Assembly (NCBI RefSeq): GCF_014202945.1
Contig: NZ_JACHHW010000002.1
Span: 372,001 to 436,000, forward strand
From: Zhongshania antarctica
Lineage (GTDB): Bacteria > Pseudomonadota > Gammaproteobacteria > Pseudomonadales > Spongiibacteraceae
Direction of reading: 5' to 3'
Length of the DNA stretch: 64,000 nt
A model generated the notes under the pieces. That model was not told the DNA's origin and did not search any database. It saw only the letters and a program-made list of their open reading frames with translations. This document shows positions 9,194-17,733 of the stretch, in pieces. Within the stretch, counting starts at the first letter, position 1. Every line of letters begins with the position of its first letter. Both the position numbers and the translations under genes were made by a program.

Positions 9194-9356
9194 TTAATTC
9201 CATAGGCATTCAAAAGAGTGGCGCAGATTATACCTGCCAAGCCATCCCCACCCCAAACTTCTCCCGGACAACTCCCGTGCCCAAATCAAATCACTGCTGA
9301 AGAAACGCGCTAAAAAGTTTAGAATGGTGTTTCTAATCAACACCAAGGGGAAGACA

Positions 9357-10223
9357 TTGACTACCAGCAGCATGACCGCCTTTGCCCACCAGCAATCTGA
9401 CTACCCTTGGGGCAGTGCCACCTGGGAACTGCGTTCGGTCAACCATCGCTACCTGGAGCTGTCTTTCAAACTACCAGAGAGCTGGCGTAATTTAGAACCC
9501 AGCCTCCGCGACGCCCTGCGCAAAGGCCTGCAGCGCGGCAAAGTTGAATGCGCGCTCAAGGTTCAACTGCACAACCAGCAGCAAGCGCTGCAACTCAACA
9601 ATGTGCTTGCAGGACAAATTCTCGACGCTGCCAATAAGCTGAAATCGGATATCGCCCACGCCGCGCCAATCAATGTTTTTGAATTATTGCGCTGGCCCGG
9701 CGTACTCGAACCTCAAAGTGTCGACGGCGACGCCATTAGCAGCCAATTACTCGAAGGCTTTCAACAAGCCCTTGCCGAACACCTCGCCAACCGCCAACGT
9801 GAAGGCCAAGCACTGGCAGACCTCATCACCCAGCGCCTCGACAGCATCAGCGCCATCGTCGCCGACATCCGCAGCAAAATGCCCGGCATCGTCATCGCTC
9901 AACGCGAAAAACTACAACAGCGCCTTGCCGAACTCCAAGTGGAACTCAACCCCGAGCGCCTAGAGGCAGAAATCGCCCTCATCGCCCAAAAAGCTGACGT
10001 AGACGAAGAACTCGACCGCCTCGATACTCACGTAACCGAGGTACGCCGAGTCCTTAAAAAAGGCGGCGCCAGCGGCAGACGCCTCGACTTTTTTATGCAA
10101 GAACTCAACCGCGAAGCCAATACCCTGTCATCTAAAGCGGTGGTTTCGGAAAGCACTCAGGCGGCAGTAGAGTTAAAGGTGTTGATTGAACAAATGCGGG
10201 AGCAGATCCAGAATATTGAGTAG
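9357..10223 (+). CDS. yicC: YicC family endoribonuclease
   Basis: YicC proteins act as RNA endonucleases in E. coli and B. subtilis, with an N-terminal YicC domain and a C-terminal DUF1732 domain. The start is best placed at TTG 9357, preceded by AAGGGGA at ideal spacing, giving TTSSMTAFA after Met as in other YicC proteins (288 residues). An upstream ATG at 9324 would add an 11-residue tail that does not fit the family. SVNHRYLE, an acidic helix, and the conserved C-terminal block with DEELDRLDTHV, GRRLDFFMQELNREANTLSSK and VELKVLIEQMREQIQNIE are present. gmk normally comes next; here a 6.5-kb defence island separates them. Confidence 0.93.
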   Translation: MTTSSMTAFAHQQSDYPWGSATWELRSVNHRYLELSFKLPESWRNLEPSLRDALRKGLQRGKVECALKVQLHNQQQALQLNNVLAGQILDAANKLKSDIAHAAPINVFELLRWPGVLEPQSVDGDAISSQLLEGFQQALAEHLANRQREGQALADLITQRLDSISAIVADIRSKMPGIVIAQREKLQQRLAELQVELNPERLEAEIALIAQKADVDEELDRLDTHVTEVRRVLKKGGASGRRLDFFMQELNREANTLSSKAVVSESTQAAVELKVLIEQMREQIQNIE

Positions 10224-10565
10224 GTCTAGCGCGCCACTAAAAATCCATTTTTTCTTTAAGATCATAAGGTTAAATATATTCTGGGTGCTCCACAACACCA
10301 GCCCCTACACTTTAATGCGCATAAAAATGTGATTTCTTTCTTTTTTACGCGCATAAAAGTGTGGTGTTCAGACCTCGGGAAGCGCTATCCATCTAGCTCT
10401 ACGGGAAAACTCAGCTTTACATAGTGACGAGCACTGTAAAATGCGTAGTTTTTAATTTTTTACGCCTAAATATAGCCGTTAGACGGTAGGTCGACGGTTT
10501 AACTTCTCAACACTATCTCTCATGAATAACCAAATAAGCCTATTATTAAATTTATCCATCACACC
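10224..10565. other. left boundary of the yicC-gmk island
   Basis: This 342-base AT-rich intergenic stretch lies between the convergent yicC and DUF2357 genes. No open frame is convincing. It holds a long imperfect inverted repeat (listed separately) and a weaker GCGTA/TACGC repeat near 10,443-10,466. No T-tailed GC-rich terminator was seen. Confidence 0.5.
10307..10362. repeat. 21-bp imperfect inverted repeat centred on ATGCGC
   Basis: The left arm 10307-10327 (ACACTTTAATGCGCATAAAA plus A) pairs with the right arm ending at 10362 at 19 of 21 positions, across a spacer of about 14 bases. Each arm is itself nearly palindromic around (A/T)ATGCGC. An outer AACACCA/TGGTGTT pair extends the symmetry, with a six-base insertion in the left side. 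The layout resembles paired protein-binding or tyrosine-recombinase core sites, but a convergent transcription terminator is also possible. No matching copy was found at the other end of the island. Confidence 0.6.
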
Positions 10566-13073
10566 TTAATTTTTATATACTTCATCCACCTCTGAAAATT
10601 TAACGACATTTTCTATCCGTGAAAGCGTGGTAAGTTTCATCGAATGTAAAAATTTCCGAAGAGGGACATTGTTTACTGACTGTTGTAACGTAAGTGGTTT
10701 ACCTAATTCAAACAGGTAGTACAACTCATCCGACCCAGACTGCTTTCCCGCCTGATTTTCAGTTATTTCATTGCGTGGTAGTAAGGATACTCGTTTTACT
10801 GACCACACCTTGTCTATCTGCTTTGTACTCGGAATTTGTTTCGAAGGCGAAGCCAACGCTAAATAACGAACCTCGTCCACAATGTGAGCGCCAATTTGCC
10901 CCTCAAGCTGATGAATCGCTTTTTGCTTTATGTGATACCACTGAGCAGTGCCGTTCTCAAAATTTTCGAGGTAGCTTTTACTACGACCTGTTAGGTTTCC
11001 TAGCGCGGCCGTTAGTGTCAAATCAGGATACAGCACTTGGCGCATTCCGTAATAAGGAATACGGGCAGCTTCTTTCACATATTGCCGCTCTGCCATGCCA
11101 GCAACTGGGTACAAAGTATCATTGGCTTGCCCCGCCTTCACACTTGAAGCCGTGCCGATCTGGGCCTGCAAAAATTCTGACAGCCATTGGTGGCCGCAAT
11201 AATTGCTTTCGGCTTGGCTGGGTAATAACGCAAATGCCCCTATGCCCACCTCCTCTATCGCATTCGCGTAAGGGTTCATCTCTTGGGCTTGATCAAAAAA
11301 GCCTGGGTATAATGCAAATGCGCCGAACACAGGTCGACTTTTCTTAGCTCGGTCGCTTGAAACCGCATTGTCCGGTGTGGACAGGCGAATTAACGCATCT
11401 CGATAACGGTGCATTTGATTAATGGCATCGTCTGGAACGTAATCTGTCTTCGAGATATTGTCTTCGCTGCCGTCAAATCGGTTTTTGTCCGTTTTTATTC
11501 GGTATTTCGCATCAAATAGCCAAATAAACTGCTTTTCTTCGGTTAACTCACCAGCTTTGGGCAAAGTGACCTCCAAAACAATATCGGGCTCTTGGCTTAC
11601 TAAATACGAGCGAATCGACTGACCTTTTTTGGTGAACTTGGGCTCATGCGCGAGCCTTGCGGTAACGCCATCAGCTCGTTTAAAGCGAAATGCCCCTGCG
11701 AAGCCGTCTTTTAACTGATATTCAAAAAAGTCATTTTGCGATAATTTCGCGGCGTCATTTTCAACTAATGTGAAGCCCAAATCCTGCTCCAAAATCTGTT
11801 TCAGACACAAAAAGCACCACACTTCATAAATCTCAGCCACCGACTTCATTGAAATGCTCGACTGATTGCCAAACACATCTAAATAAAATTTAAGCTCCTG
11901 CCACACGCGGTATACCGCGCTGTAACCAGTTTTTTGTTGCAGCACCAACGATTCACGATTCAGCCCACCGTATGCACCCACCTCTTTTAAAAAACTTTGA
12001 TTCAACACCTTTTGCAACGGCTGCTGCCAGTTATGCAGCTCATTTAAAAAGGAATCTGACAGACGTTGTCGTTCTGGCGCTTGGTTACTTGTGCGTAGCT
12101 TGGCTTCAAATTCGGCCAACTGCCGCTTACTGCGCTTAACCGCCATTTTAATAAAGCGATTTTCTGGCGTATCTACGCTCAGTTGCTTTTTTTCTAGCCG
12201 ATAACGTTTGTCATATTGGCCATTGGCGAAATCTTGTTTAACTTGCTCACCCAGCTTGTAGGGCAGACGACCTTTTAACTTCGCCGCTTTGATATTGGCC
12301 ACCGAGGGTTGAAGCCGACTATGTGGTGCCGTGCAGATGACTTTAAGGCCTAGCTCAAATCGCGATCTTAATGCTGCGAAGTTAGCCAACCACATTAGTG
12401 GAAAGTGACCTCGCTGCTTACTGCTTGCGGCATCTTGCTCGGTTTTTTCAACTAAACTAAAGCGCCATAGAGGATAAACAGAATCGATAGCCCGATACAT
12501 GGCTGGTAAGTCTTGATGCAGCGCCATTTTCGTCGGCAACACTTCAAAAGCAATATGCTGTGTATGCGTTTTACCCTCTTCCTCAAAAGACAGTGGTAAA
12601 CGCATCCAGCCAACATCATTGCCGGTATTAATGGAGCCTATTAAACGCGCCGGAAGCGGGCCGCGTTGCTTGGCAAAACGAAATGCTTCGCTGACGCCTT
12701 GGCTACGGTGTACTAAGCGTGCATCAGATACCGCGCCAAAGAACACCCATTCAAACTGATATTGCGTATTTTCGAAAAACAAAGGGGCATTTAAGGTAAG
12801 CATTGAACGTTTTTCAGGCCCAGCGACACTCGTCGCCAAAGCTGCTTGTGCGTAGATACCGCTAGGCCCATCAATAACCGCAATATCAACCAGCTTAGCC
12901 TCTGGAGAAAAGCGTAGCTCAGGACTTATATTTTCCGCATTTCCGACACGAGCAAGCGTTAAGCTTGCTCTTTTTTCCACAGTGGCCTGATATACCTTCG
13001 CCCGAGCGCTAATGTCATTAGCCCAAATCGAAAACTCGAAATCAGGCGTTTGTAGTCGCAATAACTCAGGCAT
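10566..13073 (-). CDS. DUF2357 PD-(D/E)XK nuclease, McrC-like partner of the AAA+ McrB protein
   Basis: This 835-residue protein is the probable DNA-cutting subunit of the adjacent McrB-like motor. The C-terminal half carries a PD-(D/E)XK nuclease core: an acidic helix with SVAEIYEVWCFL (Glu414), QEPDIVLEV (Asp497, Glu501), then WLFDAKYRI (Asp521, Lys523), followed by INQMHRYRDA at about 552-560, typical of DUF2357 nucleases. The first roughly 280 residues are a beta-rich DUF2357 region of unknown structure, and a helical segment (about 280-400) joins the two parts. It starts at ATG 13073, 32 bases after the McrB-like gene, as the last gene of the operon. GC is about 45-50 %, closer to the host than the upstream part of the operon. 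Nuclease activity is inferred from the motifs. Confidence 0.85.
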   Translation of the reverse strand: MPELLRLQTPDFEFSIWANDISARAKVYQATVEKRASLTLARVGNAENISPELRFSPEAKLVDIAVIDGPSGIYAQAALATSVAGPEKRSMLTLNAPLFFENTQYQFEWVFFGAVSDARLVHRSQGVSEAFRFAKQRGPLPARLIGSINTGNDVGWMRLPLSFEEEGKTHTQHIAFEVLPTKMALHQDLPAMYRAIDSVYPLWRFSLVEKTEQDAASSKQRGHFPLMWLANFAALRSRFELGLKVICTAPHSRLQPSVANIKAAKLKGRLPYKLGEQVKQDFANGQYDKRYRLEKKQLSVDTPENRFIKMAVKRSKRQLAEFEAKLRTSNQAPERQRLSDSFLNELHNWQQPLQKVLNQSFLKEVGAYGGLNRESLVLQQKTGYSAVYRVWQELKFYLDVFGNQSSISMKSVAEIYEVWCFLCLKQILEQDLGFTLVENDAAKLSQNDFFEYQLKDGFAGAFRFKRADGVTARLAHEPKFTKKGQSIRSYLVSQEPDIVLEVTLPKAGELTEEKQFIWLFDAKYRIKTDKNRFDGSEDNISKTDYVPDDAINQMHRYRDALIRLSTPDNAVSSDRAKKSRPVFGAFALYPGFFDQAQEMNPYANAIEEVGIGAFALLPSQAESNYCGHQWLSEFLQAQIGTASSVKAGQANDTLYPVAGMAERQYVKEAARIPYYGMRQVLYPDLTLTAALGNLTGRSKSYLENFENGTAQWYHIKQKAIHQLEGQIGAHIVDEVRYLALASPSKQIPSTKQIDKVWSVKRVSLLPRNEITENQAGKQSGSDELYYLFELGKPLTLQQSVNNVPLRKFLHSMKLTTLSRIENVVKFSEVDEVYKN

Positions 13074-13105
13074 TCCTAGCCACTCCTTTTGCTTTTATTT
13101 TAGGG

Positions 13106-15145
13106 TTATGGCCAAAAACTCGTAAACGTAGCGCTATCTAAGCGCTGCGTCATCCATTCCAATTTTCCTTTCGAACGACACGCAATACGCAGCACTTTAT
13201 CTGTTTCCAAAGCATTCTCAGCGCCCGATTGTTCGCGATACAGGTCTGGGCGCTGATTAGCTTGATCACTATCTTTGTCCGCATTCCAGATAGGCGATAA
13301 CTGCTCAGCCAACACCTTATTCAGCTCAGCCAACACATTCTCGCCAGTTGCCGTTGCCAGCTTGTCGCTATCGCCTTCAATCCTAGGGAGCACTTTGCAC
13401 ATCATAAAGTCATCCCACACGGCTTTTAGGGTGAGTTCGTCCTGTGGCTGACTGCTGATCACGGCTAGTAATAATTCATTCAGTGCTCGGAACGCCAATT
13501 CGAACGGGGTGTTTTTTAAAACCGTATTTACAGCCGTTAAAAAAGCGATAGATTTTATGCCCTTCACATCAGCTGTCGCATCTAGCAATACAACACTATT
13601 TCTAGCATTTGACCAAATGGGGTAGCTAAGGGTTTTGTGCTCGATGGCTGGCGGATCAGACAAAAAATCATCGTAGCTATTGGGAAAAAATGCGCCAAAA
13701 TCAACGCTCAATGCGCGGTCAATCACCTTCCGCGAAAAACCATGAGTCGTTTCATCCATATTCACAGTGCCCGCGACCATTAAATTAAATGGAATTGCTA
13801 AGCCATACCCGCAGATCAACTGCCACAGCTCGTCGTAGCCTGACGATTCAAACCCCAAATCAGCTCTTAGCTTGCCCGTATCCGCCACTGCGTTAATCGT
13901 TGCCGGCTTTAACAAGGCATCACTGAAGTAGATAAAAGTATCCTCTTCCCAAAGCCATTCGCGGGTCTCCAGCACCGACAAGTAATCGGCAAAATACTGT
14001 TCAACAGGTGCAAGGTTCATTTCATCTAAACACAACCAATACGGCAGAACGTCATTAAGCACAGTGCTATCGCCAGTCACCACCAAACGTTTGCCTTGCC
14101 TATGGCAATCCTGCACTTCAATTGTTAAGCCCTTGTCAGCAATGCCACGCCATGCCTTGGCAATAAACTGTAAAACGTCTGTAGTGATATATTCCGCTTG
14201 GCCGTGACTTGAGAGGCGCGAGATATAGCCCAATATATCACTCGGCTCATGCCAATCAGGCCTTACTGAAGTTAGGCAATAGGTTTCGTTTAACTGACCG
14301 GATGCTTTTGCTTGCTCGCGTACGAATCTTGTTTTACCAGTACCAGAGAGGCCGGCTAGGAGGAGAAAGGGTTTTGAGAGGACAATATTTTTAGATTCAT
14401 TTGATGAAAAGTACTCAGCCAATTTCTTACAGGCTGCACTATACATAGAATTTCCAGCTATATCGGCTTCTTGCCAGCCAGGAACAGATTTAAGTAAGTT
14501 TAAGGCGTTTATCACGCCTTCGGAGGATAGTTCATAAAGCGAAGATTCACCTATACCAATTTCACCTACGTACTTATCACTAAACTTTATTCCAGTCGCA
14601 GAATAACTATACGCTGTTCTTTCTGACAACCCTTTTTGTAGCATCCAGCCATGAAATCTACTTTGAATACTGGAATATTTTCTCCGTGATACTAAATTAT
14701 TTTCTTCTAGTTTGAAAAAATTATTCCAGTTCGATAACGCTGTTCCTATATTATCCTTAGTTAAATACGTATTTTCTTCTGGCGGCACGTAATCCAAACC
14801 AGCAAGAAAAGATATTATTTTTGATATCAACTTAGTTAATGAACTTGTTTGACTACCCCCAGCCGAGTGAATAATTCCAAGATCATTTTTATTTACTGAT
14901 TTATATATTTCTCGGTAAGATTTTTCCTCATACTGAAAAAACATAGCCTTTCTAGTTGGAGTCGCCTCCCATTTTTCATAAACAGCATTATATTCATCAA
15001 GAATAAAAATCAGAAAAAGCCTTATAGCTTCCGGTGGTATGCTGAATTCCTGGTTAGTAGAATTTGCGTATGTCAAAACAACCGCCTCTTCCACAACTAC
15101 TTTCTGGCCTTCGTCCACAGTATTGCAATATTCTTGAAAATTCAT
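13106..15145 (-). CDS. McrB-like AAA+ NTPase with variable N-terminal recognition region
   Basis: The C-terminal part (about residues 255-600) is a McrB-family AAA+ motor with Walker A GLSGTGKT (265-272), Walker B LCLDEMNLAP with Asp374-Glu375, and GTVNMDETTHGFSRKVIDRA carrying the sensor/arginine-finger region (Asn462, Asp464). McrB proteins hydrolyse GTP to drive translocation and cleavage by McrC-type nucleases; GTP rather than ATP use is inferred. The first roughly 250 residues match no family I recognise and should hold the DNA-recognition domain. The ATG at 15145 overlaps the methyltransferase stop by 4 bases (ATGA), so translation is coupled. Sampled GC falls from about 53 % (13,861-13,920) to about 32 % (14,641-14,760), with the break near 14,390, just upstream of Walker A. 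Confidence 0.88.
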   Translation of the reverse strand: MNFQEYCNTVDEGQKVVVEEAVVLTYANSTNQEFSIPPEAIRLFLIFILDEYNAVYEKWEATPTRKAMFFQYEEKSYREIYKSVNKNDLGIIHSAGGSQTSSLTKLISKIISFLAGLDYVPPEENTYLTKDNIGTALSNWNNFFKLEENNLVSRRKYSSIQSRFHGWMLQKGLSERTAYSYSATGIKFSDKYVGEIGIGESSLYELSSEGVINALNLLKSVPGWQEADIAGNSMYSAACKKLAEYFSSNESKNIVLSKPFLLLAGLSGTGKTRFVREQAKASGQLNETYCLTSVRPDWHEPSDILGYISRLSSHGQAEYITTDVLQFIAKAWRGIADKGLTIEVQDCHRQGKRLVVTGDSTVLNDVLPYWLCLDEMNLAPVEQYFADYLSVLETREWLWEEDTFIYFSDALLKPATINAVADTGKLRADLGFESSGYDELWQLICGYGLAIPFNLMVAGTVNMDETTHGFSRKVIDRALSVDFGAFFPNSYDDFLSDPPAIEHKTLSYPIWSNARNSVVLLDATADVKGIKSIAFLTAVNTVLKNTPFELAFRALNELLLAVISSQPQDELTLKAVWDDFMMCKVLPRIEGDSDKLATATGENVLAELNKVLAEQLSPIWNADKDSDQANQRPDLYREQSGAENALETDKVLRIACRSKGKLEWMTQRLDSATFTSFWP

Positions 15146-16359
15146 GGTATATTACCCCCGATTTTTTTAGCAATTCTTGTAATCACTGGCACGACTACTG
15201 AATTTCCAAACTGTTTGTAGGCCGGAGATCTTTTCTCAGGAACGATAAAGCTTTCTGGAAATCCTAGCAATCTCGCGCATTCTCTTTGGGTCAAAAATCT
15301 AGGGTTTTTCCCAACTTGAGGAACCAAACACTCCTTACCATCCTTACCGTATCTTGCAACAATAGTATTCGAAGGCTTATCTAAATCTGCCGTATGCGCG
15401 GTAAATCCAGTCCCCCTCTCAACATTACGCTTAGTTCTGTTGATATGCCCTTGCCAAAGCCTGTCTGATATTGTGTAACTTTCGTCTACGCTAGACTCTA
15501 AAATTGACTTTAATGCCAATGGCTCTCCATCAAATTCAGGAAATTTAAAAGTGAAATTCAAATCTTTTCGAACAGCCACCATATAACACCGAACTCTACG
15601 CTGAGGAACCAACGAACTTGAATCAATTACTTTGTATGAAAAACTATATCCGCTATTTTCAATAGTTTCCTTGATTGTGCGGAACGTTCTACCCTCATCA
15701 TGCCTTTCAAGATTTCTAACATTTTCCAAAAAAACTATCTTAGGTCTCTTAACATCAATAACTCTCATCACATCGAAGAACAATGTCCCTTGAGTGTCAC
15801 ACAAAAAACCATGACTTTTACCTACAGCATTCCTAGCTGATACGCCTGCGTGCGAAAAAGGCTGACATGGAAATCCCGCCAACAAAATATCATGACTTGG
15901 AATTGCACTCTCATCTATTTTTGTTATGTCTCCAAATGGAAATTCTCCATGATTTTCTTTATATGTTTTTTGCGCTCCCTTGTCATACTCTGATGAAAAG
16001 ACACAAGCTCCACCCGCATTCTGAAACCCTAGCCTGACACCACCAATGCCAGCAAAAAGATCAATAAATCTAAACCTAGCGTTCTTTTCTGGCCTCAGTT
16101 TAAGAGCACCAAATACCAGGTCAAAAAAATCATCTTGATTTGTATATATTTTCTGTTTTTTAAATACCGCGAGTATTTTCTTCTTCATCGCCGCCGGTGA
16201 CGTAACAGTAGGATCACAAAAAAACTGACTACCCGTTGCAATAGCATGCAACCATTGATCTACAAGCGCCTTCGGCTCTGTGCCCTCAGGTACATGCGGC
16301 AGGACAAATGGTGCAATTAGGAGCTCAGCCGAAGCCAATATGTCTTTTCTATTCTTCAT
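15142..16359 (-). CDS. DNA (cytosine-5-)-methyltransferase of the island
   Basis: This 405-residue C5-cytosine methyltransferase carries the standard motifs in order: I FAGIGG (102-107), IV GFPCQPFS with catalytic Cys165, VI ENVRN (Glu212), VIII QRRVR (253-257), and X YKQFGNSVVVP (381-391). The target-recognition region contains ARYGKDGKECLVPQ and then RFLTQRECARLLGFPESF, resembling Dcm/EcoRII-group enzymes; the target sequence cannot be read from this. About 95 residues precede motif I, longer than minimal enzymes. It is the first gene of the operon, starting at ATG 16359 with a weak ribosome-binding site, and its stop overlaps the McrB-like start. GC is near 40 %, below the host. It presumably protects host DNA from the partner nuclease. 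Confidence 0.93.
   Translation of the reverse strand: MKNRKDILASAELLIAPFVLPHVPEGTEPKALVDQWLHAIATGSQFFCDPTVTSPAAMKKKILAVFKKQKIYTNQDDFFDLVFGALKLRPEKNARFRFIDLFAGIGGVRLGFQNAGGACVFSSEYDKGAQKTYKENHGEFPFGDITKIDESAIPSHDILLAGFPCQPFSHAGVSARNAVGKSHGFLCDTQGTLFFDVMRVIDVKRPKIVFLENVRNLERHDEGRTFRTIKETIENSGYSFSYKVIDSSSLVPQRRVRCYMVAVRKDLNFTFKFPEFDGEPLALKSILESSVDESYTISDRLWQGHINRTKRNVERGTGFTAHTADLDKPSNTIVARYGKDGKECLVPQVGKNPRFLTQRECARLLGFPESFIVPEKRSPAYKQFGNSVVVPVITRIAKKIGGNIP

Positions 16360-17049: not shown

Positions 17050-17733
<684 letters not shown>

Follow-up and report, generated by a model that had tools for sequence, protein, structure and literature searches.

A three-gene operon on the minus strand of the Zhongshania antarctica genome very probably encodes an McrBC-like restriction-modification system of the PcaRCI kind. 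The operon occupies positions 10566–16359 of the 64,000-bp stretch analysed here (contig NZ_JACHHW010000002.1, positions 372,001–436,000; hereafter the window), and consists of genes for a C5-cytosine DNA methyltransferase (M), an McrB-like AAA+ motor subunit (R1) and an McrC-like nuclease subunit (R2). Comparison with related loci revealed that the type of reader domain at the N-terminus of R1 predicts the content of the operon (M or none), and that readers were repeatedly exchanged on one motor-nuclease chassis. The novelty lies in this comparative result, in which the relatives look like natural sign-switching chimeras. The evidence tips slightly towards a model in which cassette exchange has repeatedly reversed the methylation dependence of one McrBC-type chassis, between Type IV restriction and restriction-modification.

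Products of the operon

Gene calling revealed three intact open reading frames (ORFs) between yicC and gmk, and the identities, span and strand that an earlier sequence-only reading had assigned to them (a methyltransferase, an McrB-like protein and a DUF2357/PD-(D/E)xK nuclease) could be confirmed exactly. M is the first gene of the operon and overlaps R1 by 4 bases, while R1 and R2 are spaced by 32 bases. All features described in this section lie on the minus strand.

The M protein (405 amino acids; 15142–16359) matched PF00145 with an E value of 7e-88 and was the only PF00145 match in the whole genome. It contains the motifs PCQ (residues 164–166), ENV (212–214) and QRRVR (253–257), and PCQ, ENV, Q253, R255 and R257 were invariant among nine aligned M sequences. 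The closest PDB matches were 3lx6 and 3me5, followed by M.HhaI, and M shared 51% identity with chain 3lx6 across 303 aligned residues. Chain 3lx6 is presumably Dcm (the entry itself reads cytosine-specific methyltransferase). The target-recognition domain (TRD) of M, at approximately residues 258–353 (15301–15588), was related to the TRD of 3lx6 with a z score of 15.6 against shuffles, and its identity was further linked to the reader of R1, as described below.

The R1 protein (679 amino acids; 13106–15145) was recognised by the PADLOC profile PDC-M26A (E 2e-31) and by its motifs, namely Walker A GLSGTGKT (265–272), Walker B DE (374–375) and an NxD signature (N462-M-D464 followed by E); the match to Pfam AAA_5 stayed below the cut-off (E 0.0027). 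Walker A, Walker B and the McrB-type signature were invariant in 12 aligned sequences, window included. The string GTVNMDET was conserved without exception in alignments of 12 and of 48 R1 sequences, and NxD could be found by pattern in 84 of 85, the invariance of NMDE being partly built in because the relatives were gathered partly through the pattern NMDETTH. The sequence-only reading had described the system as GTP-driven; GTP as the nucleotide of R1 is only inferred, because R1 carries NxD (NMDE) and not the NxxD form tied to GTP hydrolysis. According to Bell et al. (PMC11090510), NxxD is needed for GTP hydrolysis in McrB, and NxD McrB proteins had yet to be characterised. The link between NxxD and GTP hydrolysis by McrB is also drawn in PMC7680126.

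The first 260 residues of R1 (14366–15145) form the N-terminal reader domain, an exchangeable module and the predicted DNA-recognition part of the system. PF12102 (MrcB_N) gave no match in the window R1 at E values up to 1, and no known modified-base reader could be identified in it by Pfam. A predicted model, covering residues 1–260 only, contained helices of at most 20 residues.

The R2 protein (835 amino acids; 10566–13073) contains a DUF2357 domain (residues 145–391; 11901–12641; PF09823, E 2.6e-60) and a PD-(D/E)xK nuclease domain (414–592; 11298–11834; PF04411 PDDEXK_7, E 1e-41), and its match to the PADLOC profile PDC-M26B was weak (E 0.0042). RE_LlaJI, which we take to be the Pfam family of the LlaJI R2 protein, was not among the Pfam matches of the window R2 at E values up to 1. 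The catalytic residues P496, D497, D521, A522 and K523 were invariant in 31 aligned R2 sequences, the motif could be found by pattern in 82 of 82 R2 proteins of at least 600 amino acids, and the predicted R2 model matched McrC chains. The C-terminal domain (residues approximately 681–825; 10599–11033) is predicted to adopt a PUA-like (ASCH/EVE/YTH) fold; R2 may thus carry a domain of its own, possibly one that reads bases, in both reader states. The DUF2357 part of McrC contacts and activates McrB (PMC11090510).

Readers, methyltransferases and the shared chassis

A total of 520 R1 relatives were found in GTDB species genomes using the patterns WLCLDEM and NMDETTH. The 86 loci compared consisted of the window, the best 80 of these 520 by similarity, and L021, L023, L026, L028 and L029. 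After removal of L118, which has no R1 reading frame, 85 loci remained. The part of R1 before Walker A was clustered in 79 of them, since readers shorter than 60 amino acids (L026, L076, L083, L098, L132 and L139; 6 of 85) were left unclustered, and the clustering revealed 23 MrcB_N readers, 8 small readers and 48 other full-length readers. We take PF12102 MrcB_N to be DUF3578, the 5-methylcytosine-binding domain of E. coli McrB. Such a domain of E. coli McrB is described in PMC11090510.

The reader type and the presence of M were closely linked. PF12102 was present in 23/23 members of its cluster, and M was found in the fetched stretch of none of these 23 loci, among which L130 begins where its contig ends and the upstream sequence of L121 is 0.66 kb long. 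Conversely, PF12102 was found in none of the 48 R1 proteins with other full-length readers (E up to 0.01), and M was present in 46 of these 48 loci (Fisher p 1.1e-16, relatedness ignored). Forty-four of the 46 have an M of at least 300 amino acids directly upstream, and in L122 the gene lies elsewhere in the stretch in the opposite orientation. Seven of the 44 M proteins lacked PCQ by pattern (L099, L105, L109, L110, L112, L141 and L145); the one of them that was scanned, from L105, still matched PF00145 (E 6.9e-53). One M-linked reader, in the R1 of L142 (8218–10227), matched BpuJI_N (E 1.2e-7; 31.7 bits against a cut-off of 25), a domain that comes from a sequence-specific restriction enzyme.

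Readers of both kinds could be found on nearly identical chassis. In a tree of motor domains built with a careful method (85 rows), the MrcB_N label required 19 changes, at least 14 of them forced by well supported branches; shuffled labels required 20.7 changes on average, and 97 of 500 shuffles were as low as 19. An R2 tree built with a quick method (82 rows, with long-branch warnings) required 17 changes, at least 14 being forced by starred branches, and 39 of 500 shuffles were as low as 17. Shewanella L079 (MrcB_N) and Methylophaga L124 (an M-linked, or M-type, locus) shared 96% identity in R2 and 90% in the motor; the Psychrobacter pair L140 (MrcB_N) and L110 (M-type) was 96% and 89% identical, and Pectobacterium carotovorum L115 (MrcB_N) and P. 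brasiliense L116 (M-type) were 88% and 87% identical, respectively. Chassis with 96% identity in R2 and 89–91% in the motor occur in both reader states, and the pairs whose motor and nuclease are 87–96% identical differ wholly in reader and M.

To locate the exchange, nine MrcB_N/M-type pairs were compared at the DNA level without gaps, with the end of the conserved KPF as the anchor point. Identity was 13–57% upstream of base −30 and 37–80% in the last 30 bases, while the first 30 motor bases were 80–97% identical in seven of nine pairs and 67% identical in L111–L114 and L087–L121; lower identity further on in some pairs probably reflects indels. This puts the DNA junction immediately ahead of Walker A. 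The same step was observed between two M-type loci with unlike readers (L084–L078), and no step between two with like readers (L084–L124). A helix-turn-helix (HTH) regulator (PF25212) of L079 was 92% identical over 77 residues to those of L124 and L084, so that in this comparison both limits of the exchanged segment are marked. The exchanged unit would be a cassette lying between the conserved upstream HTH regulator, where present, and the fixed junction before Walker A. In one state it would hold M and a site reader that matches it, in the other a reader of 5-methylcytosine by itself. The literature searched, which included few subscription papers and no supplementary files, yielded no description of readers being exchanged repeatedly on near-identical chassis.

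This HTH regulator is a 110-amino-acid protein (PF25212 HVO_A0114; L072:7465–7797 and relatives) encoded upstream of M in many loci. It was detected by blastp in 24 of 86 loci, and in L023, L078, L087, L107 and L116 it forms the N-terminal part of M.

Within the M-type loci, the simplest reading is that the reader and METHYLTRANSFERASE are matched, so that both would recognise one site. Reader similarity correlated with TRD similarity after motor and R2 similarity were removed (partial Mantel 0.586, a value reached in 0 of 2000 permutations); the correlation was weaker when the rest of M was removed too (0.309, again 0 of 2000). Of the 44 loci in which a full M adjoins R1, both values cover 35, nine being dropped as their TRD could not be delimited by patterns. 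The reader type of the window (residues 1–158) was found in 10 of 44 loci, window included, and only these carry the TRD type of the window. The TRD was 72–83% identical in the nine other loci with the same reader (scores 383–434), whereas in the remaining 34 loci identity was at most 48% over at least 80 residues (score at most 195).

Comparison of the TRDs of 30 of the 44 loci with that of 3lx6 showed that the type found in the window and the commonest other type are related to it (z 13–25 against shuffles), while those of L021/L074, L023/L078/L107/L116 and L142 are unrelated (z at most 1.7). A palindromic target of the CC-GG type is a reasonable guess for M, held at low confidence, because its TRD is related to that of 3lx6 (presumably Dcm), Dcm methylates CCWGG and M.PcaRCI methylates CCNGG. 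Both specificities are given in PMC8989522. A palindromic site fits a single M, and the symmetric site that the single methyltransferase had suggested to the sequence-only reading can be regarded as plausible, given the kinship of the TRD with that of a Dcm-type enzyme. In L089, L090 and L098, R1 is preceded by two genes, or pieces of genes, for C5 methyltransferases, a LlaJI-like arrangement, and these loci may recognise asymmetric sites.

Several observations weigh against a clean two-way rule and the interpretation built on it. The 80 loci were the most similar of 520 and not a random sample, and the patterns used to gather them included NMDETTH. The predicted model of the R1 reader has no clear DNA-binding fold. 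L147 was counted as having M on the basis of a 25-bit fragment at the contig start, which cuts off all but the end of M; L100 has an M-linked kind of reader and no M in the fetched stretch; L144, also without M, matches only the second part of the window reader; and the eight small-reader loci, which have no full M, fall outside the rule altogether. The M-linked reader of L145 gave a weak, sub-cut-off match to EVE (E 0.0088), a modified-base reader which, if real, would speak against a clean rule. Physical adjacency of the reader and M could also explain part of their covariation.

The small readers (L028, L082, L085, L092, L123, L131, L149 and L150) are 121–157 amino acids long, and the only one scanned, that of L085, had no Pfam match. 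Three of the eight loci contain an M fragment just upstream, as ORFs of 92, 127 and 175 amino acids. The small reader is possibly another modification reader, or a detoxified state that followed the loss of M. A Vsr gene was considered as a clean marker of M and rejected, as it occurs in six M-type, three MrcB_N and one small-reader locus, and in L118.

The site beside yicC

The operon lies between yicC (9324–10223, plus strand) and gmk (17116–17733, plus strand), as had been claimed from the sequence, and the site proved in addition to be a recurrent hotspot. The G+C content in 1-kb blocks was 39–47% in the operon and 48–54% in its surroundings. No ORF of at least 80 amino acids was present in the gap between yicC and R2, and a single ORF of 81 amino acids was present between M and gmk. 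No two-component regulatory gene was found among the ORFs of at least 80 amino acids in the yicC–gmk interval, and the window has no ORF resembling the HTH regulator ahead of M. In the gap that separates yicC from the end of R2 (10311–10363), GCGCATAAAAnTGTG is present twice, 32 bases apart, a pair for which 0.10 occurrences would be expected by chance in the window when up to one mismatch is allowed. This 15-mer, GCGCATAAAAnTGTG, occurs five times across 18 genomes of the genus. The pair is perhaps an operator remaining from a lost gene.

Both yicC and gmk were found in 18/18 genomes of the genus. The distance between them was approximately 0.1 kb in two genomes (G192 and G148), 1–19 kb in 12, window included, and 46–137 kb in three (G291, G272 and G294), while in G297 the two genes were on different contigs. 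Therefore genes do interrupt the yicC–gmk order, as the sequence-only reading had proposed, but the order it called normally tight is tight in only a minority of the genus. In 21 of the 85 loci, the window among them, the fetched stretch also contained yicC (11 loci with M, 7 MrcB_N, 2 small-reader and 1 readerless); by our estimate, approximately 1 in 200 random positions of a 4-Mb genome would lie as near. In three stretches from the genus (L054, L066 and L070), a gene for a tyrosine integrase (PF00589 plus an arm DNA-binding domain) starts approximately 200–270 bases from the end of yicC. Integrases of the type searched were found in only three of the 21 yicC loci (L078, L079 and L124). No convincing att direct-repeat pair could be found in the window between 9900 and 17400. 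Because its interval contains neither an integrase nor a clear att repeat, the operon of the window is best called a passenger or a remnant in the hotspot. Islands specific to yicC have been documented, e.g. in Shewanella and Pseudoalteromonas (PMC8978831).

The genome G291, whose yicC is 99% identical to that of the window, has 46 kb between yicC and gmk (C1:3972881–4019088), with an integrase gene first. A partial R2 (residues 195–834 matched) without R1 or M was found in L022 (genome G063 of the genus), where it sits in a yicC island with an integrase gene (the integrase of L066). A 1046-amino-acid protein recurs in yicC islands of the genus (L056, L061, L062 and L066). Its copy in L062, a helicase with PLD-like and DUF3427 domains, is encoded immediately after a gene resembling the HTH regulator found ahead of M in other loci, and for this reason several defence genes may share that regulator.

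Of the 293 genomes in the order sample, 16 had a relative of R2, and in 13 of these, window included, identity reached at least 41%. M, R1 and R2 occurred together in 9 of the 16 R2-bearing genomes, again including the window, so that the absence of the triple from other genomes, which had been named as an outcome refuting the claim, did not occur. Within the genus, R1 was found in 3 of 18 genomes, with a strong match in two and a weak one in the third.

Comparison with known systems and alternative explanations

The closest characterised parallel is PcaRCI of Pectobacterium carotovorum RC5297, which restricts unmethylated plasmids and phage while M.PcaRCI protects (PMC8989522). PcaRCI is built from the same three components as the window operon, in which single genes for a C5 methyltransferase, an McrB-like AAA+ protein and a DUF2357/PD-(D/E)xK protein lie together. 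M.PcaRCI is Dcm-like with the target CCNGG determined by nanopore sequencing, the system sits in a variable region, and Birkholz et al. (2022) ascribed its sign to an unrelated DNA-binding domain (PMC8989522). The Pectobacterium brasiliense relative in our sample, L116, has a reader and a TRD type other than those of the window.

LlaJI of Lactococcus lactis, which also has an McrB-like R1, a PD-(D/E)xK R2 and C5 methyltransferases, cuts unmethylated DNA, its R1 binding the site, but it has two methyltransferases and an asymmetric site, compared to the one M of the window (PMC1459862). The R1 protein of H. pylori LlaJI has a B3 reader (PMC7680126, PMC12707154), whereas the window reader has no assigned family. 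Thus the proposed LlaJI type holds for the way in which the system would work but not for membership, given the single M and the lack of an RE_LlaJI match. Classic McrBC of E. coli K-12 (Type IV) shares the motor and nuclease architecture, and close relatives of the window R1 and R2 include MrcB_N versions without M. The window operon is not itself a classic McrBC, as it lacks MrcB_N, has an M overlapping R1 and carries NxD instead of NxxD.

The window also shares NxD followed by E, an adjoining methyltransferase and an McrC homologue with extra domains with the methyltransferase-associated NxD branch of McrB; a two-component regulatory gene, frequent but not defining in that branch, was the feature not seen among the interval ORFs (PMC11090510). 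Bell et al. (2024) report methyltransferase association in all three signature-motif branches and defer it to a later paper (PMC11090510). In CoCoNuT systems the PD-(D/E)xK of the McrC homologue is often inactivated or missing, whereas the PD...DAK of the window R2 is intact. Another feature of these systems is long coiled coils fused to the McrB homologue; the helix lengths given above bear on this for residues 1–260 of R1 only. The gene content is also unlike that of BsuM of Bacillus subtilis (YdiS–YdjA), which has two methyltransferases and three restriction genes. O'Driscoll et al. (2006) distinguished McrBC-like enzymes that act by themselves and target methylated DNA from those that are paired with methyltransferases and target unmethylated DNA, and the contrast in methylation sign between LlaJI and McrBC was noted in the same work (PMC1459862). 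The N-terminal domains of McrB proteins were described as highly divergent (DUF3578, YTH, B3) in 2020 (PMC7680126), and much the same is stated in a 2025 review (PMC12707154).

In the PcaRCI-like reading, M would methylate C5 of cytosine at a short site in the host's own DNA, one that is related to the Dcm target and probably palindromic. R1 would assemble as a ring driven by a nucleoside triphosphate, with its N-terminal reader binding the site of M when unmethylated, and R2 would dock onto the ring through DUF2357, the motor moving DNA until the PD-(D/E)xK domain of R2 cuts. Ring assembly, translocation and restriction of unmethylated DNA are taken here from characterised relatives, while we infer the binding of the site of M by the reader, the identity of that site and the nucleotide used. 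The reader would set the methylation sign, and the same motor and nuclease with MrcB_N, without M, would cut methylated DNA. The earlier proposal that the system cuts unmethylated DNA is well supported by the precedent of PcaRCI and by the rule linking reader and methyltransferase.

A Type IV McrBC that cuts methylated DNA and lies by chance beside an orphan Dcm-like methyltransferase is highly improbable. R1 and R2 are homologous to McrBC, and the close MrcB_N relatives without M are probably Type IV; however, the window R1 has neither MrcB_N nor another known modified-base reader, M overlaps R1 by 4 bases and the pairing of reader and M is conserved. Moreover, an enzyme cutting at 5-methylcytosine next to a 5-methylcytosine methyltransferase would attack its own host, and M was absent from the fetched stretches of all 23 MrcB_N loci. 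Considerably more room, although still short of an even chance, is left for a restriction-modification system whose motor uses ATP or another nucleotide instead of GTP, given NxD in the place of NxxD. NMDE is invariant in the aligned relatives, albeit partly found by a pattern containing it, and NxxD is the form tied to GTP hydrolysis by McrB (PMC11090510, PMC7680126). Purified R1.LlaJI, which showed neither GTPase activity nor activity with other nucleotides (PMC1459862), also counts in favour of this. Against it, the describers of the NxD group put that group inside the McrB GTPase family (PMC11090510), and the Walker motifs of R1 are otherwise McrB-like.

The operon could instead have been carried along in a yicC island in an inactive or silenced state, as the window has no HTH regulator ORF upstream of M (24 of 86 loci have one) and the genus includes a degraded copy (L022). 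The three full-length frames, with each catalytic motif that was checked intact, make this improbable. It is rather unlikely, though less so, that the operon is mainly a selfish addiction module with restriction of phages and plasmids as a by-product. The location in a mobile-DNA hotspot and the patchy occurrence of R1 in the genus, which suggests mobility, agree with this idea, and Birkholz et al. argue for it in the case of PcaRCI (PMC8989522). Addiction is nevertheless compatible with a PcaRCI-like restriction-modification system, and PcaRCI protects strongly against phage and plasmids (PMC8989522).

The locus provides a clean single-methyltransferase example of the little-studied NxD group of McrBC systems and marks yicC as a place to seek such cassettes. 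Its relatives represent natural domain-swap experiments on whether the reader alone sets a methylated or an unmethylated target. They suggest a route by which a host could change to the opposite defence strategy without needing a new nuclease to evolve.

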